A stretch of DNA of 64,000 nucleotides from Verrucomicrobiaceae bacterium (lineage in GTDB: Bacteria; Verrucomicrobiota; Verrucomicrobiia; Verrucomicrobiales; Verrucomicrobiaceae). A program made the translations under genes and the position numbers. Shown piece after piece: positions 26,885 through 40,033 of the stretch. The notes beneath the pieces were generated by a model. That model made no database searches. It was not told the origin of the DNA and saw only the letters and a program-made list of their open reading frames with translations. Position 1 is the first letter of the stretch. Each line of letters begins with the position of its first letter. The stretch spans positions 248,001-312,000 of the forward strand of contig JAEUHM010000044.1 of assembly GCA_016795485.1 (NCBI GenBank), in the 5' to 3' direction.

Positions 26885-28093
26885 GTGGCAAAGACGACCA
26901 GCCAGACACTGCGCAAGGAACTCCTCGGCTTCAAAGAGTTCGGAACGAGCACTCAATGCGCAGAACTGGCTGCCGGAGGCACTATGGTGCCGGTCTACAT
27001 CAATGAGTATTGGACTGCAAAACAAAGAGCTGCGTCCAACCTCCATGAGGTGCCCTACCGCGCCTGTTTTAAGCCGCAGCTACCACGTTTTTTCATCGAG
27101 CGCCTCACGCGCCCAGGAGATCGCGTCTACGACCCCTTCATGGGACGCGGCACCACATTGATCGAGGCAGCGCTCATGGGCAGACGTGTGGCCGGGTGCG
27201 ATGTCAATCCACTCGCCGCCACACTAGCCGAACCAAGGCTCGCCCCGCCGGCTCAAGATGACGTTCTTGCCAAACTCGAGTCGCTCGACCTCACAGGACA
27301 TGCTGAGGTGAATGAAGATTTGGCTCCGTTTTATCACATCGACACCTTAGGCCAAATCCAGGCACTACGACGCTACTTCTTGAATCGCGAGCTCGATGCC
27401 GTGGACAAGTGGATCAGAATGGTGGCGCTCACACGCCTCACGGGACACTCCCCAGGATATTTTTCCGTCTACACCTTGCCGCCTAATCAAGCAGTGCTGC
27501 CAGGGCGACAGCGCTTGATCAACGAAAAGCGCGCGCAAGTACCAGAGTTCCGCGATGTGAAGGCACTCATCGCTCGCAAGTCGGCACAGCTGCTAAAAGA
27601 GCTAACCAAAGAGCAACTGAAGCACCTCCACAGCTCGGACCGGATCCTTCTAACATCCGAGGCCAGCCAAACTCAAGCGCTGGCAGACAACTCAGTTAGC
27701 TTAGTGGTAACCTCACCGCCGTTTCTCAATGTCGTCGACTACAAGACGGACAACTGGTTGCGCTGCTGGTTCCTCGGCATTGACGCGGCCACCGTACAGA
27801 TCAGCCAGATCAAAAAACTCACCGAGTGGCAGCAAACCATGACCCGTGTGTTTCACGAGCTTGCAAGAGTGATCAAACCCGGTGGCCACATCGCGTTTGA
27901 AGTCGGTGAAGTCGCAGGCGGCACGATCCGACTCGAAGAAGCGAGCATCCCGTGCGGAATAGCCGCTGGTCTGGAGCCCGACTTGGTGCTGATCAATGCC
28001 CAAGAGTTCACCAAAACCGCCAACTGCTGGGGCATCGCCAACAACGACAAAGGCACCAACACCAATCGGATCATTCTCTTCCGTAAGCCCTAG
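26885..28093 (+). CDS. Orphan DNA methyltransferase (N6-adenine/N4-cytosine type)
   Basis: 402 residues, GTG start 13 nt after lpdA. The AdoMet-binding motif is VYDPFMGRGTTLIEAALMG near residues 81-99, with GCDVNPLAATLA as the acidic strand end. The catalytic motif IV is TSPPF near 275-279, followed by NVVDYKTDNWLRCWFLG. Motif I precedes motif IV. A typical amino-methyltransferase C-terminus (LARVIKPGGHIAFEVGEVAGG) is present. No restriction endonuclease or specificity gene is adjacent, so it is probably a regulatory or phage-derived orphan enzyme. Target sequence unknown. The GTG is accepted because the upstream frame gives no better start and residues from about 10 on look conserved. Confidence 0.85.
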   Translation: MAKTTSQTLRKELLGFKEFGTSTQCAELAAGGTMVPVYINEYWTAKQRAASNLHEVPYRACFKPQLPRFFIERLTRPGDRVYDPFMGRGTTLIEAALMGRRVAGCDVNPLAATLAEPRLAPPAQDDVLAKLESLDLTGHAEVNEDLAPFYHIDTLGQIQALRRYFLNRELDAVDKWIRMVALTRLTGHSPGYFSVYTLPPNQAVLPGRQRLINEKRAQVPEFRDVKALIARKSAQLLKELTKEQLKHLHSSDRILLTSEASQTQALADNSVSLVVTSPPFLNVVDYKTDNWLRCWFLGIDAATVQISQIKKLTEWQQTMTRVFHELARVIKPGGHIAFEVGEVAGGTIRLEEASIPCGIAAGLEPDLVLINAQEFTKTANCWGIANNDKGTNTNRIILFRKP

Positions 28094-28169: not shown

Positions 28170-29072
28170 ATGGGTCGCCTTCTCATCTTCTTCGCGCTTC
28201 CGCTGCTTGCACTGGCCGAACTCACGCCCAGCGAGCGTGAGTTGATGCAGCAACTCGGCCCCGGCACGCCCGAGCCCATTTTGCTCTGGCCAGACAAGCC
28301 GCCGCAGTTCCTGGAAAACGCCGCGCCGGAGGTCATCAAAGACAATCAGACCATCCAGAGCGTCTCCGTGCCCACGATCACGCCGTATCTGCCGCCGAAG
28401 GAGAATCGCACCGGCATGGCCATCGTCGTTTGCGCAGGTGGCGGCTATGGCGGGCACGCGTGGAAGACGCACGTCGTGTATGCCGCGCAGGTCTTCAATC
28501 CGATGGGCATCGCCGTCATTGGCCTCAAATACCGCACGCGCCCACCGCACAAACTCGACAACGCAGGCATTCAGGAGCTCACCTTGCTCGATGCGAAACG
28601 CGCCATGCGCCTCGTCCGTCATCGCGCTGCCGAATGGGGCCTCGATCCCGCGAAAGTCGGTGTCGCGGGCTATTCCGCGGGTGCGAACCTCGCAATGAAT
28701 CTCGCCGCGAACTTCGATCTCGGCGATCCGCAGGCCACCGATCCCATCGACCGCCTCAGCAGCCGTCCTGACTTCGCCGTCGGCCTCGGCACCTGGCATT
28801 GGCGGAAGCCAGAGAACCCGTTTGTCTTCAAGGCGAACTCGCCGCCCGTATTTCTTGTCCACGCCACCACCGACAAGCCCATCGAGATCGCAACGAACAT
28901 CGTCGCCGACTTGAAAAAGCTCGGCGTGCCCGCCCGCCTCGATCTCCACGAAGAAGGCGGCCATGGCGTCGGCAATCTCATCCCCACCCGCGTGAAACAC
29001 CATTTCCCCGGCGCCCAGTGGCCGAAGATGCTCGTCGAATGGCTGGGGACGTTGGAGGGGAAGAAACCGTGA
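28170..29072 (+). CDS. Secreted alpha/beta hydrolase (carbohydrate-esterase-like, BD-FAE/xylanase-associated type)
   Basis: 300 residues from the ATG at 28170 (MGRLLIFFALPLLALAELTP, signal peptide); the longer frame overlaps the methyltransferase and is rejected. IWP.-type opening PEPILLWPDKPPQFLENAAPE, the oxyanion loop AIVVCAGGGYGGHA, the nucleophile elbow VGVAGYSAGANLAMNLA (GxSxG), and the late His in HEEGGHGVGNL are clear. Such proteins deacylate plant or algal polysaccharides in the periplasm. From here the third codon positions become markedly GC-rich compared with the methyltransferase before it. Confidence 0.88.
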   Translation: MGRLLIFFALPLLALAELTPSERELMQQLGPGTPEPILLWPDKPPQFLENAAPEVIKDNQTIQSVSVPTITPYLPPKENRTGMAIVVCAGGGYGGHAWKTHVVYAAQVFNPMGIAVIGLKYRTRPPHKLDNAGIQELTLLDAKRAMRLVRHRAAEWGLDPAKVGVAGYSAGANLAMNLAANFDLGDPQATDPIDRLSSRPDFAVGLGTWHWRKPENPFVFKANSPPVFLVHATTDKPIEIATNIVADLKKLGVPARLDLHEEGGHGVGNLIPTRVKHHFPGAQWPKMLVEWLGTLEGKKP

Positions 29073-29119: not shown

Positions 29120-29596
29120 ATGGAGACGGTTTACATTGAAACGACGATTCCCAGCTACCTGACGGCTCACCGCAGCCGTCAGGAGCCGATGGCGTCGCAT
29201 CAGAAGCTGACGCACGACTGGTGGAAGGATCAGCGGCACAAGTTTCTGCTCTACAGCTCTGTTCTCGTCCGGTTGGAAGCCTCGCGCGGTGACGCCAATG
29301 CCGCCCAGCGACGTCTCGCCTACCTCAATGGGATCACGGAACTCGACGTGCTGCCTGAAACCGTTCAGCTTGAAGCCGATTTGATTCGTTTGTTTCAGCT
29401 TCCGCCTCGGGCCGCCGCAGACGCGGGTCATCTGGCGATGGCGATCCTTCACCGGATGGATTACCTGCTCACCTGGAACTGCACGCATCTGGCAAACGCC
29501 ACTTTGCAGAAGGAACTGATGGACTACTGTCTCTACCACAAGCTGCACCTCCCCATCATCTGCACCCCTGAAACCCTCATCACCCAGGCATCATGA
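29120..29596 (+). CDS. PIN-domain VapC-like toxin of a type II toxin-antitoxin pair
   Basis: 158 residues. N-terminal VYIETTIPSYLTAH is the PIN variant in which the first acidic residue is in IETT. Further conserved parts are SSVLVRLEASRGD, PPRAAADAGHLAMAILHRMDYLLTWNCTHLANA (acidic Asp then the WNC-H-x-A-N motif). PIN domains are metal-dependent RNases; VapC toxins usually cut tRNA or rRNA. Its stop overlaps the next ORF by 4 nt (ATGA), and that ORF has the size and context of an antitoxin. Toxin first, antitoxin second is the reverse of the usual vapBC order but common for this subfamily. Activity is inference. Confidence 0.82.
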   Translation: METVYIETTIPSYLTAHRSRQEPMASHQKLTHDWWKDQRHKFLLYSSVLVRLEASRGDANAAQRRLAYLNGITELDVLPETVQLEADLIRLFQLPPRAAADAGHLAMAILHRMDYLLTWNCTHLANATLQKELMDYCLYHKLHLPIICTPETLITQAS

Positions 29597-29826
29597 CTGA
29601 CCGCATCGTTCAAGAAGTCCGAGCCGCACGCGCCGAAGTCGCCGCCGATTTCGGCAATGACCGTGCCCGCTTCTGGGCGTGGGCACGGGAGCAGCAGGAA
29701 GCTCAAAAGGAGTCGAAAAAGCAACTGCCCGCCGCCCCGGCCAAGCCAACAGTGAAGCCAACAGCCAAGTCGAAGTCTCTCGCGCCTCGGAAGCGAAGCG
29801 TGCGTCCGACTCGTGCCTTGGCGTGA
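29593..29826 (+). CDS. Small putative antitoxin coupled to the VapC-like toxin
   Basis: 77 residues, start overlapping the toxin stop (ATGA). N-terminal half MTDRIVQEVRAARAEVAADF with NDRARFWAWAREQQ resembles the short helical partner proteins found beside PIN toxins of the IETT type. The C-terminal 40 residues are a Lys/Pro/Ala-rich low-complexity tail (PAAPAKPTVKPTAKSKSLAP) that could bind nucleic acid. No classical ribbon-helix-helix or AbrB domain is visible. The tail ends close to the REP-rich DNA that follows. Confidence 0.65.
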   Translation: MTDRIVQEVRAARAEVAADFGNDRARFWAWAREQQEAQKESKKQLPAAPAKPTVKPTAKSKSLAPRKRSVRPTRALA

Positions 29827-29892
29827 AGCCAAAGCCCAAGGAAAGGCGCTTTGGAAGCGCCTCCGAACAGGTCGAGTGCTGATAGCCACCTT

Positions 29893-30046
29893 GGACTGCG
29901 GCAGCCTGCTGCCGCCAAAGTCTCCCGGTCACCGAAAAGCCCCTCTGCTGTCGCCAACGCGATAGCGCCTTGGCGGAACATCGTCTTGGAACATTCGACG
30001 GCCAGCAGGCTGGCCTCCCGAAAGCGGCAGCAGGCTGCAGCAGTCC
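29893..30046. repeat. REP-bounded element, copy a
   Basis: Begins GGACTGCGGCAGC-CT-GCTGCCGC (8-bp hairpin, 2-nt loop) and ends with GGCCAGC-AG-GCTGGCC (30000-30015) then an imperfect GCGGCAGCAGGCTGCAGC and CAGTCC. Its ends are thus inverted copies of each other. The interior (about 90 nt) matches copies c and d closely. Located between the toxin-antitoxin pair and the Fic gene. Confidence 0.85.
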
Positions 30047-30285
30047 ATGTAGTCCATGTCACGCTCGGATTCGATCGAAGCATGGGGACAGGAGAATGGA
30101 TTCGCCGGATTCTTTTGTCCCCATGCTTCTGTCGATTCTGTCTCCGCTTGTTTCCTGAGTGGCTCGACCCTTCCGAGGTGCGTCAGGAGGTCTGAGTCCG
30201 GCGCGAGAGGCGTCCCAGGGGAACGGTTGAGCCCTTGGTATCTCTAGCGGCGCTCCTCATCCTCGCCTTCGAGGGTGAGAGCCAT
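29893..30285 (+). repeat. Long direct repeat, left copy (REP element a plus flank)
   Basis: Matches 32472-32880 in the same orientation. Shared stretches after the REP element include CATGTAGTCCATGTCACGCT (near 30045), GAAGCATGGGGACAGGAGAA, TTTCCTGAGTGGCTCGACCC, TTCCGAGGTGCGTCAGGAGG and CCCAGGGGAACG. No convincing reading frame runs through it. The remainder of the gap to the Fic gene (30286-30388) holds the palindrome described separately. Confidence 0.8.
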
Positions 30286-30340
30286 GGGGGCTCCACCGGA
30301 CCGTTGGCCTGACTCATCAGTCAAAGAATAACCTGTTTTC

Positions 30341-30366
30341 TTTACGCGTCACTGCTGACGTGTTAA
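30341..30366. promoter_or_regulatory. Palindrome upstream of the Fic gene, candidate operator
   Basis: TTTACGCGTCA (30341-30351), spacer CTGC, TGACGTGTTAA (30356-30366): inverted arms match at 9 of 11 positions. It ends 22 nt before the Fic ATG. A further TTTCTTTACAC lies at about 30379-30388, echoing the left half (TTTCTTTACGC). The Fic protein has a C-terminal winged-helix domain, so autoregulation through this site is a reasonable guess. Confidence 0.5.
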
Positions 30367-30388
30367 GTTTTTGCCGATTTCTTTACAC

Positions 30389-31462
30389 ATGAGCTTCCAC
30401 CTTGAGCCTCTACCGCTGCCAGCCTCCATCGAGTTGGAGACTCCGGCGGTGCTGCGGCAGTTGGCTCGGTCGCATCGGCATCTGGCCGAACTCAAAGGCG
30501 CAGCGGCGACCATTCCGAACGAGGCCATCCTCATCGACACCCTCGCTTTGCAGGAGGCCAAGGACTCCTCCGCCATCGAAAACATCATCACCACCGAGGA
30601 CGAGCTTTTCCGCACCGACTCCGCGCCTGGCGGCTACGGCAGCTTGGCGGCGAAGGAGGTACATCGCTACGGAGCCGCTCTGAAGGTCGGCTTCGAGCGT
30701 GTGCGCCAGCAAGGCTTTCTGAGGCTCGAGGACGTGCTCGCGGTGCAGGCCACGCTGGAGCAAAACCGCGCCGGATTACGCAAGCTCCCCGGCACCGTGT
30801 TGAAGAATGCCGAGACAGGAGCAGTCGTCTATGAGCCGCCGCAGGATGCCGTGCGCATCGAGCAGTTGATGGACAACTTCATCACCTGGCTAAATCGCAG
30901 CGAGCCCGGCGATCCCGATCCACTCGTGCAGATGGCCGTGCTGCACTGGCAATTCGAGAGCATCCACCCTTTTTATGACGGCAATGGCCGCACAGGGCGC
31001 ATCTTAAACCTCCTACACCTCGTCATGCACGGCCTGCTTGATCTTCCCGTGCTCTACCTCAGCCGCCACATCGTGCGGAACAAGGCCGACTACTACCGCG
31101 GCCTCCAAGGCGTGCGCGAGCATGGTGCCTGGGAGGCTTGGGTGCTCTATATCCTCCGTGCCGTCGAGGAGACCGCCAAGGAGACGCTCACCCAGGTCAC
31201 CGGCATCCGCCAGCTCATGCAGGAGACCAAGCAACGCCTGCGTTCCCAGCACCCGAAGCTCTACAGCCAGGAACTGCTCAACAACCTTTTCCGTCACCCC
31301 TACACTAAAGTCGAGTTCATCGAGCACGACCTCGGCGTCTCACGCCCCACCGCGATGAAGTATCTCGACACCCTGCACACCGCCGGCTTCGTGAAAAAGA
31401 CCAAGCGGGGCCGCACCAACTTCTACATCAACGAACCGCTGTTCGCGCTGCTCGGGCGGTGA
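30389..31462 (+). CDS. Fic-domain protein with inhibitory helix and C-terminal winged helix
   Basis: 357 residues from ATG 30389 (a TTG 18 nt upstream is less likely). Fic proteins usually transfer AMP from ATP to a hydroxyl on a target protein. The N-terminal autoinhibitory motif (S/T)xxxE(G/N) is SSAIEN at about residues 60-65, so it is class II, intramolecularly inhibited. The catalytic loop is HPFYDGNGRTGR at about 193-204, fully intact, with the flap region before it (LRKLPGTVL). The last roughly 80 residues (QELLNNLFRHPYTKVEFIEH, then SRPTAMKYLDTLHTAGFV) form a winged helix-turn-helix, as in Fic proteins of the SoFic type. It sits in a cassette with a RAYT transposase and REP repeats. 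Targets are unknown. Confidence 0.95.
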   Translation: MSFHLEPLPLPASIELETPAVLRQLARSHRHLAELKGAAATIPNEAILIDTLALQEAKDSSAIENIITTEDELFRTDSAPGGYGSLAAKEVHRYGAALKVGFERVRQQGFLRLEDVLAVQATLEQNRAGLRKLPGTVLKNAETGAVVYEPPQDAVRIEQLMDNFITWLNRSEPGDPDPLVQMAVLHWQFESIHPFYDGNGRTGRILNLLHLVMHGLLDLPVLYLSRHIVRNKADYYRGLQGVREHGAWEAWVLYILRAVEETAKETLTQVTGIRQLMQETKQRLRSQHPKLYSQELLNNLFRHPYTKVEFIEHDLGVSRPTAMKYLDTLHTAGFVKKTKRGRTNFYINEPLFALLGR

Positions 31463-31480
31463 GGCTCCGGTCTCACCCTT

Positions 31481-31662
31481 GGACTGGGCAGCCTGCTGCC
31501 GCTTTCCCCAGGCAGCCCTGCTGCCGTCAAAGTCCGATAGATGATCAAACGCCACGACCAGCTCTCGCTAAGGCGGTAGCCGTGAGCGCATCGGAAGTCT
31601 CTCAGCCTCCGGCGGCCAGCAGGCTGGCCTTCCGAAAGCGGCAGCAGGGCTGCACGCACTCC
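31481..31662. repeat. REP-bounded element, copy b, between the Fic and RAYT stop codons
   Basis: Begins GGACTGGGCAGCCTGCTGCC (31481-31500), followed by a second hairpin GGCAGCCCTGCTGCC, and ends with GGCCAGCAGGCTGGCC, GCGGCAGCAGGGCTGC and CACTCC. It has the same architecture as copies a, c and d but a diverged centre. It fills the whole 200-bp gap between the two convergent genes and stops 4 bp short of the RAYT stop codon. Confidence 0.85.
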
Positions 31663-31665
31663 ATA

Positions 31666-32244
31666 TTACTCCCCGTCCTCGGCAGCGATTTCATCAAACG
31701 GAAAACTCGCCACGGTCTTCACCCACGCAGCCGTGGCTTCGCGTTTGAAGTCAGCCGCGCTGCACCACCGCCACTGCGAGGCCAGCGGCACCAGGCCATG
31801 GTGCTTGGGATTCTGATGCACATAGTTCAGCCGGGCCAGGTAGCTCTGCGGATAGGTCAGATGCGTCTCCCGATAGTTCTGCCAAAGCCGCGTCCGCCCT
31901 GGTGTGCCGTCTTCCGTATTCAAACGCTTCGTCGCCAGGCTGTGCAGCTTTTGCAGCACGACCCGCAGTGTGTCCGCGTCCCCCGGAGGACTATGCGCCA
32001 CCACATGGTAATGATTTGAGAGAACCGCCCATGCCTCCAGCTTCCATCCCGCTTCCGCAAAGCCCTCCAGCAGCATCTGGAGAAACCAATCGCGACGTTC
32101 TGGAGTATGCAAAAGAGGCTTCTTCTCGCGAGTCCGCGCCGTCACAAAATACACCCCGCTCTCCGCCAGCCGATGCGGTGGCGCATGAGGCCAGTGACGG
32201 GTGCCGCGAAGGCACTCTTCATCGTTGGGCAGATCAGGCATCAT
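31666..32244 (-). CDS. REP-associated tyrosine transposase (RAYT, Y1/HUH superfamily)
   Basis: 192 residues from the tandem ATGs at 32244/32241; the longer frame upstream only translates REP DNA. The single-stranded DNA transposase signature is present: the HUH pair in LSNHYHVVAHS (about residues 77-86) and the candidate nucleophile Tyr141 in YVHQNPKHHGLV. The early part has GVYFVTARTREKKPLL, and WRWCSAADF near the C-terminus is typical of the family. RAYTs are domesticated IS200-like enzymes that nick and move REP palindromes. Here one REP element lies directly downstream and two lie directly upstream, the classic REPtron layout. The catalytic residues look intact, so it may be active. Confidence 0.93.
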   Translation of the reverse strand: MMPDLPNDEECLRGTRHWPHAPPHRLAESGVYFVTARTREKKPLLHTPERRDWFLQMLLEGFAEAGWKLEAWAVLSNHYHVVAHSPPGDADTLRVVLQKLHSLATKRLNTEDGTPGRTRLWQNYRETHLTYPQSYLARLNYVHQNPKHHGLVPLASQWRWCSAADFKREATAAWVKTVASFPFDEIAAEDGE

Positions 32245-32306
32245 GGATAAAGGATGTTCAAAGCCCGCCCTACCCGTCAAGTATCGAATGGAAGGAACAA
32301 CAACAT

Positions 32307-32460
32307 GGACTGCGGCAGCCCGCTGCCGCTTTTCCGAGGCAGCCTGCTGCCGCCAAAGTCTCCCGGCCATCGAAAAGCCCCTCGGCTGACGCCAACGCGA
32401 AAGCGCCTTGGCGAAACTTCATCTTGGAACATTCGACGGCCAGCAGGCTGGCCTCCCGAA
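32307..32460. repeat. REP-bounded element, copy c, upstream of RAYT
   Basis: Begins CATGGACTGCGGCAGCC with its hairpin, has a second hairpin GGCAGCCTGCTGCCGCC, an interior like copy a (TCTTGGAACATTCGACGG), then GGCCAGCAGGCTGGCC. The right end is truncated: after CTCCCGAAA it runs into ACATGAAACATGGACTG of copy d. It is therefore in tandem with copy d. Confidence 0.85.
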
Positions 32461-32471
32461 ACATGAAACAT

Positions 32472-32649
32472 GGACTGCGGCAGCCTGCTGCCGCTTTTCC
32501 GAGGCAGCCCTGCTGCCGCCAAAGTCTCTTGGCCATCGAAAGCCCCTCGGCTGTCGCACACGCGAGAGCGCCTTGGTAAAACATCGTCTTGGAACATTCG
32601 ACGGCCAGCAGGCTGGCCTCCCGAAAGCGGCAGCAGGCTGCCGCAGTCC
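32472..32649. repeat. REP-bounded element, copy d, complete with perfect terminal inverted repeats
   Basis: GGACTGCGGCAGCCTGCTGC at the left end is matched by its exact reverse complement ending in CAGTCC at 32649, a perfect terminal inverted repeat of about 23 bp. Internal hairpins GGCAGCCCTGCTGCC and GGCCAGCAGGCTGGCC are present. This is the most complete of the four copies (178 bp). Confidence 0.88.
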
Positions 32650-32880
32650 ATGTAGTCCATGTCACGCTCGGTTCGACCGAAGCATGGGGACAGGAGAATG
32701 GATTGGCCTGCTTCTTTTGTCCGCATTCTTCTGTCGATGCTGCTGAGCTTGTTTCCTGAGTGGCTCGACCCTTCCGAGGTGCGTCAGGAGGTCTGAGCCT
32801 GACGTGAGAGGCTTCCCAGGGGAACGCTTGCGCCCTTGGAATCTCGGGCGGCGCGCCTCATCCCCGCCCTCGAAAGTGCC
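32472..32880 (+). repeat. Long direct repeat, right copy (REP element d plus flank)
   Basis: Direct counterpart of 29893-30285. Shared words include CATGTAGTCCATGTCACGCT, GAAGCATGGGGACAGGAGAA, TTTCCTGAGTGGCTCGACCC and CTTCCGAGGTGCGTCAGGAG. Differences are scattered substitutions and a 24-nt extra hairpin in the REP part. Together the copies bracket Fic and RAYT, about 2.6 kb apart. Confidence 0.8.
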
Positions 32881-33072
32881 GCAGGGGCTCGATGAGTGGC
32901 TGGAACGTCAAGGGTGGATTGGGGATACCGGGATCTCCGGTCCCGAAAACTGTGATACGATTTGCTGACCTGGAAGTGCCCGCTTCCGCTGAAGCTGCTG
33001 CTAGTCCGAAACATGATCCAACTGGCTTATTGGTGGTCAAATGATCCACGGCAGATTATTGAATCCATCCTG
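32881..33072. other. Gap after the REP region, no gene seen
   Basis: About 190 bp between the long repeat and the first membrane-protein gene. It contains a small imperfect hairpin (ACCGGGATCTCCGGT near 32926-32940). Base composition falls to more AT-rich DNA at about 33000. A frame starting at 32962 or 33013 could extend the next gene, but shows no signal peptide or conserved look. Confidence 0.4.
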
Positions 33073-33717
33073 ATGTCCGAAAAAACGCCAACCCAATCGA
33101 ATAGCTCGTCATGTTGTATCCCGTCCGGGATAAAAGCCTTGGTTTCATGGTCATTCACGGGGGTTTTGGCTCACAATCGAACCATTCAGTCTTCCTATTT
33201 TTGGCTGTTCTTTGTTCCTGTCGCCGCGAAGGCGCTGAAAGGCCTTGATCAGAAGTTGGTCTTTCAGATCTTCGATCAGAGTGTGGTTGTGCACCCCCAT
33301 CTTCCATTTAACTGGCTGGCCTTCTTCTTTTCGGCGCTTGCGTTCGCAATCGGCACCGTTCTCTATTTCGCATTCTGCCCACCAGTAACCCGAGATTTCA
33401 GAACTTGGGTTGACTACCGTGATTCAGGACGAGGAGAATGGTATATCCTGGACCAGTTGATTGATCTGCGTCAAATACCAGAAAAGGCAGTCAAAGAATT
33501 AAACGGCACTGTGTCATTCTTGACCACCGGGACCACCTATAGCTGTGCGATCAGTGACAAAGCTGTCGCTACTGTGTTTTGGGTTGTCCGCGATCTACAG
33601 AATCATCGCCGAATCTGTCCGCTCATCTTCACATTCTTGGCATTTCTGCTCGGCACAGTCTTAATTGGGTTTGTCATCATTGAGAATATTCGATTTGTAT
33701 TGAGCTGCCTCATCTGA
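33073..33717 (+). CDS. Orphan membrane protein with a cytoplasmic central domain
   Basis: 214 residues from the ATG at 33073 (MSEKTPTQSNSS); starts at 32962 or 33013 are possible. Three likely membrane segments: SSYFWLFFVPVAAKALKG, WLAFFFSALAFAIGTVLYFAF, and PLIFTFLAFLLGTVLIGFVI. About 80 residues lie between the second and third. The stretch WSFTGVLAHNRTIQSSYFWL reminds me of small uncharacterised membrane proteins in scattered genomic islands; that is memory, not a search. The gene is more AT-rich in third positions than its neighbours, suggesting recent transfer. Function unknown. Confidence 0.7.
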   Translation: MSEKTPTQSNSSSCCIPSGIKALVSWSFTGVLAHNRTIQSSYFWLFFVPVAAKALKGLDQKLVFQIFDQSVVVHPHLPFNWLAFFFSALAFAIGTVLYFAFCPPVTRDFRTWVDYRDSGRGEWYILDQLIDLRQIPEKAVKELNGTVSFLTTGTTYSCAISDKAVATVFWVVRDLQNHRRICPLIFTFLAFLLGTVLIGFVIIENIRFVLSCLI

Positions 33718-33776: not shown

Positions 33777-34145
33777 ATGGATACTTCATTCATTCTCCTT
33801 TTCTTTGGCGGACCCGTCATCGCTATTGTTGGCTTTTTTGCCTGTCTCGTTCCGCACGTTCGCCCACAGCGCTTGAGTCGGACCATTGGAGCGCTTGGAG
33901 TTGCCACCTCGCTGCCCATTGGTGCATCTATCTTAACAAACACAGCTTTCCCGCTGCTGATTCTTCGCCCTGGAACCGTCTTTTTGGGCCTGCTGACGGC
34001 TATCTCGTATCTTGTGCTCAGCCGAAAGCTTGGCTTGCCACTCCGAGAGTCAGCGGCTGCGATGGCATTACTCGTCGCTTCGCTTTGGGATGCAATATCA
34101 CTGGCCATCATAATGACCCCCGGTTTTGGCGGCGCATATTGCTAG
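33777..34145 (+). CDS. Small four-helix membrane protein of unknown function
   Basis: 122 residues, almost all hydrophobic. Segments are FILLFFGGPVIAIVGFFACL, ALGVATSLPIGASILTNTAF, ILRPGTVFLGLLTAISYLVL and ESAAAMALLVASLWDAISLA. No recognised family and no signal peptide. It follows the previous membrane protein by 59 nt in the same direction and shares its lower GC content, so the two may form one transferred unit. Function unknown. Confidence 0.6.
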   Translation: MDTSFILLFFGGPVIAIVGFFACLVPHVRPQRLSRTIGALGVATSLPIGASILTNTAFPLLILRPGTVFLGLLTAISYLVLSRKLGLPLRESAAAMALLVASLWDAISLAIIMTPGFGGAYC

Positions 34146-34233: not shown

Positions 34234-36849
34234 ATGTCCCACATGAAACCATTCCTCGCGCTCTTCCTCTCCCTCACCGCCGCGAACGCAGCAGACCTCA
34301 CCTTGCTCGACGCGGGCAAGACGGACTACCAGATCGTTTTGCCGGATGTGACACCGAGTGCGGCCATCGACGCGAGTCTTCAGCAGACGGCGCGACTGCT
34401 CCAGACGGCGTTTTTGGCGAACAAGGCGGAGATCGCCATTGTGCGTGAAAAGGAGCGGGATGGCTCCAAACCGGCGTTGATGCTCGGGAACACGGATTTG
34501 GCGCTGAAGAGCGGCGTGGAGGTGACGAAGCTGCGGGATTGGAGCTATGTGCAGCGGGTGGTGGGGCGGGATGTGATCCTCGCGGGGAATGATCAGGCCT
34601 CGAAGGCGAAGGTGGAGAATGCGCGGAGGCCGAACTGGGATCGCGTGGGCACGGTGAAGGCGGCGGTGGACTTTGCGCGGGAGTTTCTTGGCGTGCGTTT
34701 CCTGTATCCTGACCTGCCGGGCTACACGCCGGTGAGCGGCGCGGCGAAGATCGACCTCATGAGCTCGCCTGCGATCGAGTTCCTACCGATGAAGACGATC
34801 ACGGTGCCAGACACGCTGAACGTGATGAAAACGCCGCTGCTGCGGGTGAACTCGGCGCATCCAGCGGGCGGTTCGTTTTATGATCTCGCGCACAATCGCT
34901 TCCCGCGTGTGGATGAGCAGTTCGGCGGGCACACGTGGGAGCGGGCGGTGCCGGCGGAGTTGTTTGCGGAGCATCCAGAATACTTCGCGCTGATCAGCGG
35001 CTCGCGTTTGAAGCCGGAGGGCAACGGGCAGTATTGCCTGTCGAACGCCGACGTGCAGGAGCGCATCTACCGTGACCTCGTTTCGCACCTGGAGCGCGGC
35101 TTTGACAGCGTGGATCTCGGCCAGCCGGACGGCTTCCGCGAGTGCCAGTGCGAGAAGTGCGAGGCGCTCTACGGCACGGGCAAGGACTGGTCGGAGAAGA
35201 TCTGGATCTTCAATCGCGAGGTGGCGCAGCGCGTGGAGAAATCGCATCCCGGCGGGCAGATCACGATGATGAGCTACATCCTCACCGCACAGCCGCCGAA
35301 GACGTTCACGAAGTTCCCCGCGAACACCTGCATCATGCTCACCGGCACGAACGAGGAGGACATCGCCCCGTGGCGCGGCATCGAGGTGCCACGCGGCTTC
35401 ACCGGCTACGTCTATAACTGGTGCCCGAACCTCGGCACGCGCTACACGCCGATGCGCACGCCGGGCTACATCGAGTTGCAGGTGCAAAGGCTCGCCGCCG
35501 CGCGCATTCAGTCGCTGTATCGCGACGGCCCCGGCCAGCTCTTTGGCCTCGAAGGGCCGGTGTATTACACCATGGGCCGCATGTTTGATGATCCGGCGAA
35601 CAACCACGCGAAGGACCTCATCCCCGAGTTCTGCGAGGGCGCGTTCCCGGACAAGAGCATCGCCTTCTACATGCGTGCCTTTTACGACGAGCTGTATCAC
35701 GCCATCGCGCTCTACTCCGACCACATCGGCACGCGCACGGATGTGTGGACCTACAAACCGCTGCCCACCGATGCTCGCGGACGCAAAACCGTGCAGGACC
35801 CGTTTCAACTCATCGCCTTTCTCTACACGCCGCGCGTGCTCGCCGCGATGGAGGGCCACCTCGCGCAGTCCGAGCAGCTCGCCCGCACACCGAAGATCAA
35901 AACACGCCTCGCACTCGTCCGCGCCGAGTTTGATTACCTGAAGCACTTCGCGAAGGTCGTGCATCTGCATCAGGCCTGGCAGATGGCACCGGATCAGCCC
36001 TCGCTGCATCGCCTGCTCGATGCCATCGACGCGCGAAACGCCTTCATCGCCACGCTTTACGTCAAAGGGCATCAAAAGGAGTGGAACCATGTCCTCTTCC
36101 CCTTTGCCGGCCACGACGCGAAGCATCTGCAACTCGCCCACGACGGCTACCAGGAGCCGTATGCCAACACCTGCTTCAACTGGGACACGCAAGCCATGCG
36201 CCACGCTCCGCCGCCCGGCCTCAAGAAGCTCACCATCGCCAAAACGACCGCCAAACTCACGCTCGACAGCCCCGAGTGGCAAAACGCCGCCGCGCACGAA
36301 CTCACGCTCCTCCCACCGCTGCACACACTGCCGCGCAAAACGACGATTCGCCTGCTTTACGACACCAACGCCCTCCACATCCGCGCCGAGGCCGAACTGG
36401 GCGATGAAACGAAATTCACCGCCTACAACCGCGACCGCGTTTTGACGAACCAGGAGGCCTTCGATGTCTATCTGGCTCCGAATCCTGCCCAGCCGATGTT
36501 TTACCGCTTCACCCAAGGTGCCAACCCCGCCAGCCGATACGACGCCCTGAACGGTCGCATCACCGACGTCATGGACCCGCGCCACGGCAAGGACGATCCC
36601 ACCTGGAACGGTGACTGGCACAGCGAAACCCGCGTCGATACGAAGACAAAGCGCTGGCACGCGCACCTCGTGATTCCCTTCCAAACTCTCGGTGTCGAAG
36701 CCCCAACCAAAGGCATCACCTGGAAAGCCAACTTCGGCCGCAACCATGCCTTGCCACGCGAAGTCATCGACCGCGCGATTTGGTCCTCCTCACTCACCAT
36801 CACCCGTATGGCAGACACAAGCGTGATGGGCGAGATCGTGTTTGATTGA
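34234..36849 (+). CDS. Secreted DUF4838 protein (putative glycoside-hydrolase-like), first of a tandem pair
   Basis: 871 residues from the ATG at 34234 (MSHMKPFLALFLSLTAANAA, signal peptide). N-terminal region up to about residue 170 resembles the alpha-glucuronidase/hexosaminidase-type accessory domain (ALMLGNTDLALKSG, FAREFLGVRFLYPDLPGYTP). The central DUF4838 domain carries GFRECQCEKCEALYGTGKDW near residue 300, with the CxCxxC motif, and YMRAFYDELYHA later. The C-terminal 200 residues are a sugar-binding-like beta domain (TIRLLYDTNALHIRAEAEL, FRFTQGANPASRYDA-like strand). Codons are strongly GC-ended throughout, which also creates long antisense frames. Family activity is not established; a role in polysaccharide hydrolysis is inferred. 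Confidence 0.88.
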   Translation: MSHMKPFLALFLSLTAANAADLTLLDAGKTDYQIVLPDVTPSAAIDASLQQTARLLQTAFLANKAEIAIVREKERDGSKPALMLGNTDLALKSGVEVTKLRDWSYVQRVVGRDVILAGNDQASKAKVENARRPNWDRVGTVKAAVDFAREFLGVRFLYPDLPGYTPVSGAAKIDLMSSPAIEFLPMKTITVPDTLNVMKTPLLRVNSAHPAGGSFYDLAHNRFPRVDEQFGGHTWERAVPAELFAEHPEYFALISGSRLKPEGNGQYCLSNADVQERIYRDLVSHLERGFDSVDLGQPDGFRECQCEKCEALYGTGKDWSEKIWIFNREVAQRVEKSHPGGQITMMSYILTAQPPKTFTKFPANTCIMLTGTNEEDIAPWRGIEVPRGFTGYVYNWCPNLGTRYTPMRTPGYIELQVQRLAAARIQSLYRDGPGQLFGLEGPVYYTMGRMFDDPANNHAKDLIPEFCEGAFPDKSIAFYMRAFYDELYHAIALYSDHIGTRTDVWTYKPLPTDARGRKTVQDPFQLIAFLYTPRVLAAMEGHLAQSEQLARTPKIKTRLALVRAEFDYLKHFAKVVHLHQAWQMAPDQPSLHRLLDAIDARNAFIATLYVKGHQKEWNHVLFPFAGHDAKHLQLAHDGYQEPYANTCFNWDTQAMRHAPPPGLKKLTIAKTTAKLTLDSPEWQNAAAHELTLLPPLHTLPRKTTIRLLYDTNALHIRAEAELGDETKFTAYNRDRVLTNQEAFDVYLAPNPAQPMFYRFTQGANPASRYDALNGRITDVMDPRHGKDDPTWNGDWHSETRVDTKTKRWHAHLVIPFQTLGVEAPTKGITWKANFGRNHALPREVIDRAIWSSSLTITRMADTSVMGEIVFD

Positions 36850-36901
36850 GATGGGTGCCATGAAGGCCGCAAAACTAAATCCGGCTCGACGTTTCTTCGA
36901 G

Positions 36902-39900
36902 ATGAAAAGCCTCCTGGCCTTCTTCCTCTCCTCCTCCGCACTCGCCCAGACTTTCATCGTCGAAAACGGCCAGCCTTGCGCTGAGATCGTCATCGCGGAA
37001 AAGCCTTCGCGTATGCAGCGCATGGCGGCGCATGAGTTCCGCAATCAGATCGAGAAGATCAGCGGTGCACGCTTGCCCATCGTCACGCAGCCTTCGGGTA
37101 AGGCGGTCAAAGTGTTCATTGGAGCGAGCGATTTGTGCCCGGTGAAGGCTGAGGGTCTCAAAGACGGCGCGTATCGCATCGCCAGCGGCGCAGATTGGAT
37201 GGCGCTTATCGGCGAGGACACGGAGTTTGAGCCCACGGGGCCGTTTGCACGCAACAACAGCGACATCCCGCGCGCGCAGGCCGAGTGGGAGCAGATCGTC
37301 GGTGCACCGTATGGCATGCCGATGCCCGGTTTGTATAAAAACCGCCTCAAACTGCCCGCAGACACCGGCAAGCCCGACGGCGTGCCCACCGCGAAAAACG
37401 AAGCCTTCGAGATCTGGGGCCTCGATGAACGTGGCAGCTTCAATGCCGTTTGCGGCTACCTCCAACGGCTCGGCGCACGCTGGTATCTGCCTGGCGAACT
37501 CGGAGAGGTGCTGCCATCGCTCAAAACTATCGAGCTGCCGAAACTGGATGAAACCGTGCGGCCGGACTTCCGCCTGCGGCAGTTCAATTTCCGCTTCAGC
37601 ACCGCTGGCTACGACACTTCGATGTGGGCCATGCGCCTCGGCACTCGCAACGACGAGCGCCTGCAAATCGCCCACGGCATGGCGACGATGACGAATCGCG
37701 AAGAAGTCTTCGCGAAGCACCCGGAGTGGTTCGCGCTCTACGGCGGCAAGCGCGACTTCCGCCCCGGCGACTCGAAGTGCCAGCTCTGCTACTCGAACGA
37801 CGAGCTCTTTCAGGAAACGCTGCGCTGGGCGCGGGCGCAGCTCGACACGTTTCACTTTGAAGCCGTCTCCATCATGCCGCCGGACGGTTACACCTCCATT
37901 TGCCAATGCGAGAAGTGCAAAGGCAAGGACTCGCCCGAGCGCATCGACCGCGGCCTGCTCAGCGATTATGTGTGGGACTTCGTGAACCGCGTGGCGAAGG
38001 AGATCGCGAAGACGCACCCGAAGGCGAAGGTGCTGAACTGCGCCTACGGTGTTTACACCCTGCCACCGCTGAAGATCGACAAACTGGAGCCGAATGTGCA
38101 GGTCTGCATCGTCGGTGGTCGCAGGCCGCTGAACGTCGCCGCATCGAAAGCCGAAGGCGAGGCCGCGCCTGAGGCCCTGCAAGCCGCGTGGGTGAAAAAG
38201 ACCGACAACCCGCTGCTCATCTTCGAAAACTATCCGTTCACGGATCGCGGCTGGTATCTGCCCGCCTTCAGCGCTCCCGCACTCGTGGACAGCGTGAAAG
38301 CCACAAAGGACAAATCCATCGGCGAGGACATCTGGCTCACCGTGCGGCAGGATTTCGACAAAGTGGGCATCGGCTTCAATCACTTCCTCGTCTATTTCAC
38401 CGCCCGCGCCTACTGGGGCGGCCAGGACGTGAGTGCCGATGCCATGCTGCGTGAGTATTGCCGCCTTTTCTCCGGCCCCGCCGAGCAGGAGATGCACACC
38501 TTCTTCAAAGCCTGCGAAGCGAACTGGCTCGCCAGCGGCGAAGACAAAGCCAAGGCTGATGAAATCCTCGCCCTCTTCGACAAAGCGAAGACGAAAGCAG
38601 ATGCAGAGAGCGTGTTTGGCAAACGCATCGCCCTCATCGACGACTTCCTCAAAGGCCTGCGCATGAAGTCCGTGCAGCTCGGCCAGAAACGCGGCCCCGT
38701 GCCCACCTTGCGGCTCGTGGGCGATGCGAAGGGCGTCGTGATCGATGGCAAACTCGATGACGACTACTGGCAAAAGTGCCCCACCGCCGCCACTGGCCGC
38801 CTGCGTGAACTGCAAACCGGCCGCACGCCCACTTTTGGCACCTCGTTCAAAGCCGGCTGGCAGGCAGGCCACCTCGTCTTCGCCATCCGCTGCGATGAAC
38901 GACGCGGCGACAAGCCCCGCATCACCACCACTCGCGACGACGACCAGGCTGCGTGGCACGGCGATGTCATCGAACTGGAAATCGCCACCGAGACGCACTC
39001 TTACTACTCCATCGCCATCAGCCCCGCCGGGCATGTCGTCGATCTCGACCGCGGCGCACCGCGCAGCCAGTGGTTCACCTGGGATGCGAAAGCGAAGGTC
39101 GCCACGCACATCGCCGATGATCACTGGACCGTCGAGATCAGCCTGCCCGTCACCAGCGATGAAAATGATCCGCTGCATCAGATCATCGGTCGCAAGCCCA
39201 TCGTCAGCCTCCCGTGGCACTTCAACCTCTGCCGCCAGCGCATCCGCGACGACGGCGTGGAGCACAGCGCCTTCTCTCCCACCGGCGCGGAGAGTTTTCA
39301 CGAGCCGATGAAGTTCGCCCGCCTCTACGACGGCAAGTCGCACCAGTTCGACGCCGATCCCAGCGTCACCGATTTTGTCATCGCCTTCCGCGATGCGCAG
39401 CAAAAGCGTGTCCCCGCCGCGCTGCTCGCCCTCGCCGCCGGAAAAGTAACCCCGTTCCAAAAAGCCGCCGCCCTCGAACAAGCCGCCATCTGGGACAAAA
39501 AGGCCACCTTCATTGACCAGATCCCCATCGAAGCCGTCAAGATGACCGCGCAGATGCAGAACCTGCTCGCCAACTTCAAAGCGCCCGAAGTCTTGAAGCA
39601 GTTCGGCACCGAAGACATCACGCAATGGCCCTTCTGGAAGCGTGGTGACGGTTTCCATCATCGCGGCCGCGCCTACTCGATCGCCAAAAACGGCGAAAAA
39701 GCCGAATCCGACCTCAGCGCCGCTTTGGAGTGGATTGGCGATCCACGCACTCGCGAGTCCGTTTTGCTCGTGCAGGCCCAAAACCGCGAATTGAACCTCA
39801 AAAACGACGAAACCGCCCTTCAAGCCTACGAAGCCATCCTCGAAGGCAAAACCCGGATCGGTGGTGCCGATGAATACTCCGCCCTCCAAGGCATCGCCCG

Positions 39901-40033
39901 CATCCAAACGCGAAAAGGCCAGTTCGACGAAGCCTTGAAGACCCTGAACCGCGCCGAACCGGAAAAACTCCAAGGCGTGTGGAAAACGAACTTCGAGAAA
40001 TCCATCGAAGCCGTGAAGCAGGCACGGAAGTAA
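36902..40033 (+). CDS. Secreted DUF4838 protein with CBM9-like and TPR-like C-terminal regions, second of the pair
   Basis: 1043 residues from the ATG at 36902 (MKSLLAFFLSSSALAQTF, signal peptide); an in-frame start at 36842 would overlap the previous gene. The N-terminal part (RMAAHEFRNQIEKISGARLP, then VFIGASD) is the hexosaminidase-type domain. DUF4838 has the CxCxxC motif in SICQCEKCKGKD near residue 334. From about 610 a CBM9-like domain opens with VIDGKLDDDYWQKC and contains HGDVIELEIATETHSYYS. The C-terminal 130 residues have TPR-like helices (ALQAYEAILEGKTRIGGADE, QFDEALKTLNRAEPEKLQG). Paralogous to the gene before it but with more domains. Likely secreted and acting on complex glycans. 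Confidence 0.88.
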   Translation: MKSLLAFFLSSSALAQTFIVENGQPCAEIVIAEKPSRMQRMAAHEFRNQIEKISGARLPIVTQPSGKAVKVFIGASDLCPVKAEGLKDGAYRIASGADWMALIGEDTEFEPTGPFARNNSDIPRAQAEWEQIVGAPYGMPMPGLYKNRLKLPADTGKPDGVPTAKNEAFEIWGLDERGSFNAVCGYLQRLGARWYLPGELGEVLPSLKTIELPKLDETVRPDFRLRQFNFRFSTAGYDTSMWAMRLGTRNDERLQIAHGMATMTNREEVFAKHPEWFALYGGKRDFRPGDSKCQLCYSNDELFQETLRWARAQLDTFHFEAVSIMPPDGYTSICQCEKCKGKDSPERIDRGLLSDYVWDFVNRVAKEIAKTHPKAKVLNCAYGVYTLPPLKIDKLEPNVQVCIVGGRRPLNVAASKAEGEAAPEALQAAWVKKTDNPLLIFENYPFTDRGWYLPAFSAPALVDSVKATKDKSIGEDIWLTVRQDFDKVGIGFNHFLVYFTARAYWGGQDVSADAMLREYCRLFSGPAEQEMHTFFKACEANWLASGEDKAKADEILALFDKAKTKADAESVFGKRIALIDDFLKGLRMKSVQLGQKRGPVPTLRLVGDAKGVVIDGKLDDDYWQKCPTAATGRLRELQTGRTPTFGTSFKAGWQAGHLVFAIRCDERRGDKPRITTTRDDDQAAWHGDVIELEIATETHSYYSIAISPAGHVVDLDRGAPRSQWFTWDAKAKVATHIADDHWTVEISLPVTSDENDPLHQIIGRKPIVSLPWHFNLCRQRIRDDGVEHSAFSPTGAESFHEPMKFARLYDGKSHQFDADPSVTDFVIAFRDAQQKRVPAALLALAAGKVTPFQKAAALEQAAIWDKKATFIDQIPIEAVKMTAQMQNLLANFKAPEVLKQFGTEDITQWPFWKRGDGFHHRGRAYSIAKNGEKAESDLSAALEWIGDPRTRESVLLVQAQNRELNLKNDETALQAYEAILEGKTRIGGADEYSALQGIARIQTRKGQFDEALKTLNRAEPEKLQGVWKTNFEKSIEAVKQARK

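Follow-up and report, generated by a model that had tools for sequence, protein, structure and literature searches.

The window, a 64,000-nucleotide stretch of a Verrucomicrobiaceae genome, holds a Fic gene and a RAYT (REP-associated tyrosine transposase) gene between two direct repeats. The locus is likely to be a variable slot for small toxin-antitoxin and anti-phage genes, bordered by an alpha/beta hydrolase gene and a DUF4838 gene, beside a resident REPtron, with the repeats formed by the repeated junction of the slot and by REPINs. Slot and REPtron are both best read as being of known kinds. We observed the composition and rarity of the repeats, the synteny of the locus, the unlinked distribution of Fic and RAYT, their differing divergence and the copying of the hydrolase 3′ end, and it is on these that this account is built. 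The features are listed in Table 1.

Table 1 Features of the hydrolase/DUF4838 locus (positions in the window; a dot marks features given no strand).
Feature	Position	Strand	Remarks
Alpha/beta hydrolase (BD-FAE/Abhydrolase_3)	28170..29072	+	Pfam; left slot border; 3′ end copied in junctions
PIN-domain protein, probable VapC-like toxin	29120..29596	+	Weak Pfam PIN match, below curated cut-off
77-aa partner, probable antitoxin	29593..29826	+	Overlaps PIN gene; no family match
Direct repeat copies R1 and R2	29892-30272 and 32466-32873	same orientation	89% identical
REPIN of R1	29892..30050	+	TGGACTGCGGCAGCCTGCTGCCGC ... inverted copy; internal ~25-bp gap relative to R2
Second dispersed palindrome, R1 copy	30068..30138	.	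GAAGCATGGGGACAGGAGAAT / ATTCTTTTGTCCCCATGCTTC
Truncated junction element, R1 copy	30221..30272	+	Hairpin plus hydrolase 3′-end remnant
Operator-like palindrome upstream of Fic	30341..30367	.	TTTACGCGTC...GACGTGTTAAG; conserved in 11 homologues
Fic AMPylase, SoFic type	30389..31462	+	HPFYDGNGRTGR active site; N-terminal inhibitory motif SSAIEN; SoFic-like C-terminal domain
REPIN R3	31475..31665	.	Diverged; between convergent stop codons of Fic and RAYT
RAYT	31666..32244	-	192 aa; intact HYH motif
REPIN R2a	32301..32461	.	Right side truncated
REPIN R2	32466..32656	.	Complete
Second dispersed palindrome, R2 copy	32672..32742	.	
Junction element, R2 copy	32755..32919	+	Hairpin, then degenerate hydrolase 3′-end copy
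251-aa ORF, likely membrane protein	32962..33717	+	Atypical codon use
122-aa ORF, likely membrane protein	33777..34145	+	No family match
DUF4838 protein	34243..36849	+	Right slot border

A sequence-only reading of this DNA had described a repeat of about 390 bp that recurs in the same orientation on either side of Fic and RAYT. Alignment of the two copies, R1 and R2, bore this out (379 columns at 89.4% identity, with longest exact runs of 62 and 51 bp). In a genome-wide search the full repeat was found only twice in 6.5 Mb, which is far beyond chance and rules out the common genome-wide filler that the same reading had named as a case against itself. The repeat was real but not a single unit: each copy is a mosaic that combines a REPIN of ~160–190 bp with a dispersed palindrome of ~70 bp and with a hairpin/junction element, and in our view the two are likely to be copies of the REPIN-plus-junction block of the slot. 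R1 and R2 could be active RecA substrates from which Fic and RAYT are excised or amplified in some cells, so that SoFic dosage varies, and their direct orientation, aligned length and exact runs would suit this; no state with the middle deleted or amplified was seen, and a divergence of 11% between R1 and R2 points to little exchange or conversion of late and speaks against their recombining often. We regard such activity as improbable.

The REP element previously placed between the Fic and RAYT stop codons is indeed there as a diverged REPIN, R3 (62–67% identity to other REPINs at the locus and in relatives), but it is one of four at the locus, which include the additional copy R2a. Elsewhere in the genome we found only two REPINs, both diverged (C3:75887 and C8:32860). 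The aligned copies have the REP foot TGGACT, and a GT[AG]G foot was not seen.

We compared the locus with relatives from the same verrucomicrobial family, none of the same genus and most of them fragmented metagenome assemblies. Synteny of the hydrolase gene was conserved in G002, G023, G045, G052 and G032. Upstream of the DUF4838 gene, the junction element of the R2 type precedes different modules in different relatives and separates HicAB, PIN/DUF2281, ParDE and SoFic with PIN. G023 carries HicB/HicA enclosed by two REPIN-junction blocks in direct orientation, and G045 has ParDE, the junction and a PDC-S14-like gene. The order in G002 is hydrolase, REPIN, RAYT, three REPINs, junction and DUF4838 gene, without Fic or PIN, and that in G022 is REPIN, RAYT, REPIN, junction and DUF4838 gene, without Fic; G003 and G049 have Fic, PIN, partner, junction and DUF4838 gene, without RAYT. 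The same flanks thus enclose differing content in relatives, as in a defence or toxin-antitoxin hotspot. Within the slot we found no recombinase gene, and the 251-aa ORF had no homologue among 67 family genomes. Direct repeats bracket an exchangeable module here, as they do other modules in relatives, and the slot may fairly be called 'cassette-like'; as a name for a Fic-RAYT unit the term does not hold.

The right half of the junction corresponds to the 3′ end of the hydrolase gene and ~30 bp of the flank downstream. The hydrolase 3′ end of G045 matched the junctions of G049 (86%, E 3e-24), G040 (88%, E 4e-22) and G045 itself (83%, E 5e-21). Similarity of the R2 junction in the window to the hydrolase 3′ end is weak (26–28 bp at 81–85%) and the R1 junction is truncated, so homology to the hydrolase 3′ end in the window rests on transitivity. 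RNAalifold predicted a strong hairpin for 13 junction copies with a covariation term of +0.7, so the conserved pairing is no evidence for an RNA; no Rfam match near threshold was found for the repeat, and we rejected a structured RNA as its identity.

If the junction were a specific attachment sequence, this would explain the pile-up of very small, recombinase-free defence modules at one place. We think it unlikely that it is a dedicated attachment site at which an unlinked recombinase inserts and excises small toxin-antitoxin and defence modules, in an integrase-free cassette system specific to slot and family. Very unlikely, too, is an integron cassette cluster in which the junction element serves as attC site. 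Several of these genomes, including that of the window (C16:67-1005), do have an integron integrase above the family cut-off, the slot modules are toxin-antitoxin and defence genes and the junction forms a strong hairpin; yet the ~93-bp repeats of the host integron (74–92% alike) are unmatched in the slot (best E 0.38), GTTRRRY/RYYYAAC ends were not seen in the junction by eye, and the sequence of its right half was copied from the 3′ end of a gene. We therefore set integron cassettes aside.

Fic and RAYT are both intact and convergent, as had been noted, and both lie between direct repeats that contain REPINs of the RAYT type and occur nowhere else in the genome. This arrangement would suit a composite cassette, moving as a unit between its repeats with RAYT as engine. 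Against such a cassette, which we consider very unlikely, RAYT was within reach of Fic at 0 of 70 Fic loci, Fic was absent from all 29 RAYT loci and from larger neighbourhoods, and each of the five relatives possessing both genes has them on different contigs, an unlinked state that the sequence-only reading had itself named as fatal to the cassette idea. Two relatives have SoFic in the slot and no RAYT there, and in another two the slot holds RAYT and REPINs but lacks Fic. Divergence separates the two genes as well. The dS values of Fic and its flank were 0.41 and 0.41 against G003 and 0.44 and 0.44 against G049; that of RAYT was 1.66–1.79 compared with 0.38–0.43 for the flank, in relatives other than those used for Fic. 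Scaled to the same flank gene, Fic and RAYT are about four-fold apart, measured against different relatives, and part of the excess could reflect rate and not history, as RAYT dS is near saturation and RAYT GC3 is lower (0.69 versus 0.82). The two genes are thus likely to be separately acquired tenants of the slot and no travelling pair. This removes a tempting but wrong tie between a domesticated transposase and a stress or defence effector, and offers instead a concrete comparable locus at which small defence modules come and go and REPINs build up at the joints.

Fic matched the PADLOC SoFic profile over its full length (381 bits, E 1e-114, residues 5–355), with the active-site motif at residue 193 and SSAIEN at residue 60. 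The protein is a SoFic AMPylase of the self-inhibited class II, and the gene probably serves in defence by abortive infection. The 97% protein identity across genera had suggested that Fic was transferred horizontally in recent times; this was rejected, as Fic and the flanking gene have equal dS, and the identity reflects purifying selection acting on a copy as old as the flank. The operator-like palindrome before Fic, noted earlier, proved real; homologues as distant as 63% identity keep it in unrelated surroundings, and it may be Fic's own control element. RAYT matched NF047646 narrowly (80.6 bits, cut-off 80, profile search) and has the intact HUH motif of the Y1/HUH RAYT family (HYH at residue 78). 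It is the only copy of its type in the genome, with R3 on one side and R2a and R2 on the other; its orthologues in G002, G022, G025 and G009 are likewise REPIN-flanked. RAYT probably acts only on REPINs and does not move Fic.

The repeat-bearing array also holds the PIN gene and its small partner (29120-29826), outside the interval first described. The PIN genes of G003 (97% aa) and G049 (63% aa) adjoin Fic, and the partner is conserved in G003, G049 and G039. G003 and G049 have the order Fic-PIN, the opposite of the PIN-Fic order in the window, which calls for additional rearrangements. R1 and R2 might have arisen by tandem duplication of a Fic-PIN-partner-REPIN-junction segment, after which Fic would have been lost from the first copy and the PIN pair from the second, which the REPtron also entered. 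Such a history accounts for PIN and partner standing before Fic here, and for the same REPIN-junction block ending both modules; we found no lost-gene remnants in the junction sequences between hydrolase and PIN or after Fic, and hold it to be possible but doubtful. It would be a lineage-specific variant within the slot model, and not an alternative to it.

For the variable slot itself, we propose that it was inserted between the hydrolase and DUF4838 genes and would have gathered modules of one or two genes (SoFic, PIN/partner, HicAB, ParDE, PIN/DUF2281 and GIY-YIG/DUF4357), with the junction element, hairpin plus hydrolase 3′-end copy, parting successive ones. A REPtron, RAYT with its own REPINs, has probably settled independently in or beside the slot in several lineages. 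REPINs inserted immediately left of the junction would make the REPIN-plus-junction block repeat wherever the junction does. Homologous recombination between shared flanks and repeated junctions would most likely account for the gain, loss and reordering of modules; we infer this route, since neither a recombinase nor precise crossover points were seen in the slot.

Genomic islands that insert at gene 3′ ends are bordered on each side by the gene end as a direct repeat. The slot is similar in that a host-gene 3′-end copy stands where the inserted DNA ends on the far side, and differs in that it has no integrase gene and that the copy is degenerate, carries an internal deletion and is joined to a hairpin. 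A REPtron is a tnpA-REP/RAYT gene flanked by REPs or REPINs (PMC6006769, PMC3733652, PMC3116915). RAYT here agrees with this in its HUH motif, single copy, immediately adjacent REPINs on both sides and REPIN-flanked orthologues; the foot is TGGACT instead of the GT[AG]G tetranucleotide, which REP-like sequences of some subclasses also lack (PMC6006769), and REPINs are few genome-wide. SoFic is a known anti-phage system (PADLOC SoFic; PMC12249575) and belongs with class II Fic proteins (PMC3667792). Fic shares with it the domain order, intact Fic motif, N-terminal inhibitory motif and SoFic-like C-terminal domain, and differs in scoring below the NCBIfam equivalog cut-off (357 versus 550 bits), in its conserved upstream palindrome and in that no small AS1-like gene was found downstream. 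Literature on hotspots in Verrucomicrobia yielded nothing on the hydrolase/DUF4838 locus. Compared with defence hotspots and islands between core genes, as described in, for example, PMC10121019 and PMC10250203, the slot likewise varies in toxin-antitoxin and defence content while the genes on either side are conserved; it departs from them in its very small modules, its lack of a mobile-element integrase and a junction that repeats the 3′ end of a flanking gene. That junction, built from a copied gene end, is the sole mildly new part of the locus.

The long direct repeats that the sequence-only reading saw around Fic and RAYT were confirmed by alignment (89.4% identity, 379 aligned columns; longest shared exact runs, 62 and 51 bp). 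Across the entire 6.5-Mb genome the full block was found at two places only, both here, ruling out a common genome-wide filler, which would be incompatible with the cassette that had been proposed. Of nine occurrences of the REP core GGCAGCCTGCTGCC in the genome, five are at the Fic/RAYT locus. Each direct repeat is a mosaic of a REPIN, a palindrome and a junction element. The locus holds four REPIN copies (R1, R3, R2a and R2, with R3 strongly diverged), and two more, both diverged, lie elsewhere in the genome. Recombination between the repeats is possible and, because the copies are 11% diverged, not frequent.

Features in and around the locus (window coordinates), and slot content in family genomes (G numbers; partner, probable antitoxin)
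Feature	Coordinates	Strand	Details
Type II DNA methyltransferase	26885-28093		Directly precedes hydrolase gene; PADLOC MTase_II, 527 bits
Direct repeat R1	29900-30277		Junction copy truncated at 30272
Fic	30389-31462		
RAYT	31666-32244	minus	
Direct repeat R2	32503-32878		
REPIN, repeat part 1			About 160-190 bp; ends TGGACTGCGGCAGCCTGCTGCCGC and inverted copy
Palindrome, repeat part 2			~70 bp; GAAGCATGGGGACAGG...; dispersed across many relatives
Junction element, repeat part 3	32755-32919		
ORFs of 251 and 122 aa	32962-34145		Likely membrane proteins
DUF4838 gene	34243-36849		Anchor of slot comparison
Two tandem DUF4838 genes	34243-40033		
G002 slot			REPIN-RAYT-REPINx3-junction; without Fic
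G022 slot			REPIN-RAYT-REPIN-junction; without Fic
G003 slot			Fic-PIN-partner-junction-PIN/DUF2281 pair-junction-SDH protease
G049 slot			Fic-PIN-partner-junction-134-aa gene
G023 slot			REPIN-junction-HicB/HicA-REPIN-junction-134-aa gene
G032 slot			PIN/DUF2281 pair-REPIN-junction-PDC-S14 (GIY-YIG/DUF4357)
G045 slot			antitoxin/ParE pair-junction-PDC-S14-like gene

Both genes are intact, as had been claimed. The Fic protein matches Pfam Fic_N, Fic and SoFic-like_C and PADLOC SoFic (381 bits) and retains HPFYDGNGRTGR and the inhibitory SSAIEN motif; RAYT barely reaches the NCBIfam REP_Tyr_transpos cut-off (80.6 against 80) and keeps its HYH motif. Fic is a SoFic, a type described as a toxic AMPylase that causes abortive infection (PMC12249575); class II Fic members have an inhibitory helix of their own that keeps them inactive (PMC3667792). 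The palindrome noticed upstream of Fic (TTTACrCGT...ACGTGTAAAG) is real; 11 homologues, some as little as 63% identical and set in varied neighbourhoods, retain it, which suggests that Fic may be autoregulated, perhaps through its C-terminal domain. RAYT and its REPINs form a REPtron, described as non-transposing as a unit (PMC6006769, PMC3733652). A stop-interrupted Fic copy (92-97% identical) occupies a different chromosomal place in G009 (contig C65; L103 11330-12004, L177 7001-7723), with a 187-aa gene, also found in the G022 and G023 slots, and a partial junction-element match upstream.

Fic of the same type was found in 10 family genomes; five relatives with Fic also hold, on a different contig in every case, a RAYT whose aligned part is at least 76% identical. 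RAYT was found within about 7 kb of none of 70 Fic loci in a wider genome collection (tblastn, E 1e-4; very distant RAYTs could escape), and neither Fic nor PIN was near RAYT at 29 RAYT loci and 9 larger RAYT neighbourhoods. Fic dS was 0.41 against G003 and 0.44 against G049, the same as for the flanking DUF4838 gene, and RAYT dS was 1.66-1.79 against G002, G022 and G025, where the DUF4838 gene gave 0.38-0.43; as RAYT dS is near saturation and codon bias weaker, the excess is uncertain in size, not in direction. With the two genes unlinked and unlike in dS, the idea of a travelling cassette falls, and they stand side by side by coincidence, as co-residents of a toxin-antitoxin/defence slot.

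This slot, the interval between the hydrolase and DUF4838 genes, varies in content between relatives. Genes were called with a simple codon-usage caller and families checked by Pfam and PADLOC; for PDC-S14 the protein tested was that of G032, and sequence clustering extended the label to G045 and G039. G023 has the architecture of the window's locus with different cargo. Slot content is absent from G030 and G027, where the preceding gene, not the hydrolase, ends 28-75 bp from the DUF4838 gene. REPIN-flanked RAYTs stand directly after a DUF4838 gene, not before, in G025, G032 and G009. Codon use is atypical in the window's 251-aa ORF (GC3 0.56 vs 0.82), which lacks a homologue among 67 family genomes. 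Elsewhere in the window's own genome lies an integron integrase that passes the family cut-off, and after it come four repeats of ~93 bp that are 74-92% alike and spaced like cassette recombination sites (G000:C16:67-1005 and L266:2018-5419). An integrase of this kind passes the cut-off in 7 of 11 genomes checked.

The junction element, queried with a relative's copy, occurs in 12 of 68 family genomes, mostly in the slot; one copy outside it or at a broken contig end (G003:C144:116-260, L272) lies beside a transposase-like fragment. In the junction element a strong hairpin makes up the left half, while the right half corresponds to the final ~50 bp of the hydrolase gene plus ~30 bp downstream: the G045 hydrolase end aligns with the junction in G049 (86%, E 3e-24), in G040 (88%, E 4e-22) and in G045 itself (83%, E 5e-21). 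The modules are therefore flanked by the true hydrolase 3' end on one side and degenerate copies on the other, the footprint that repeated addition of DNA to a gene end would leave, whether through site-specific insertion or homologous recombination. In several genomes REPINs adjoin the junction on its left side; a junction duplication would therefore copy them along and yield the long direct repeats. The copied gene end is the single point meriting closer study; the observed repeats and genes are real, and the locus belongs to already known kinds of system.
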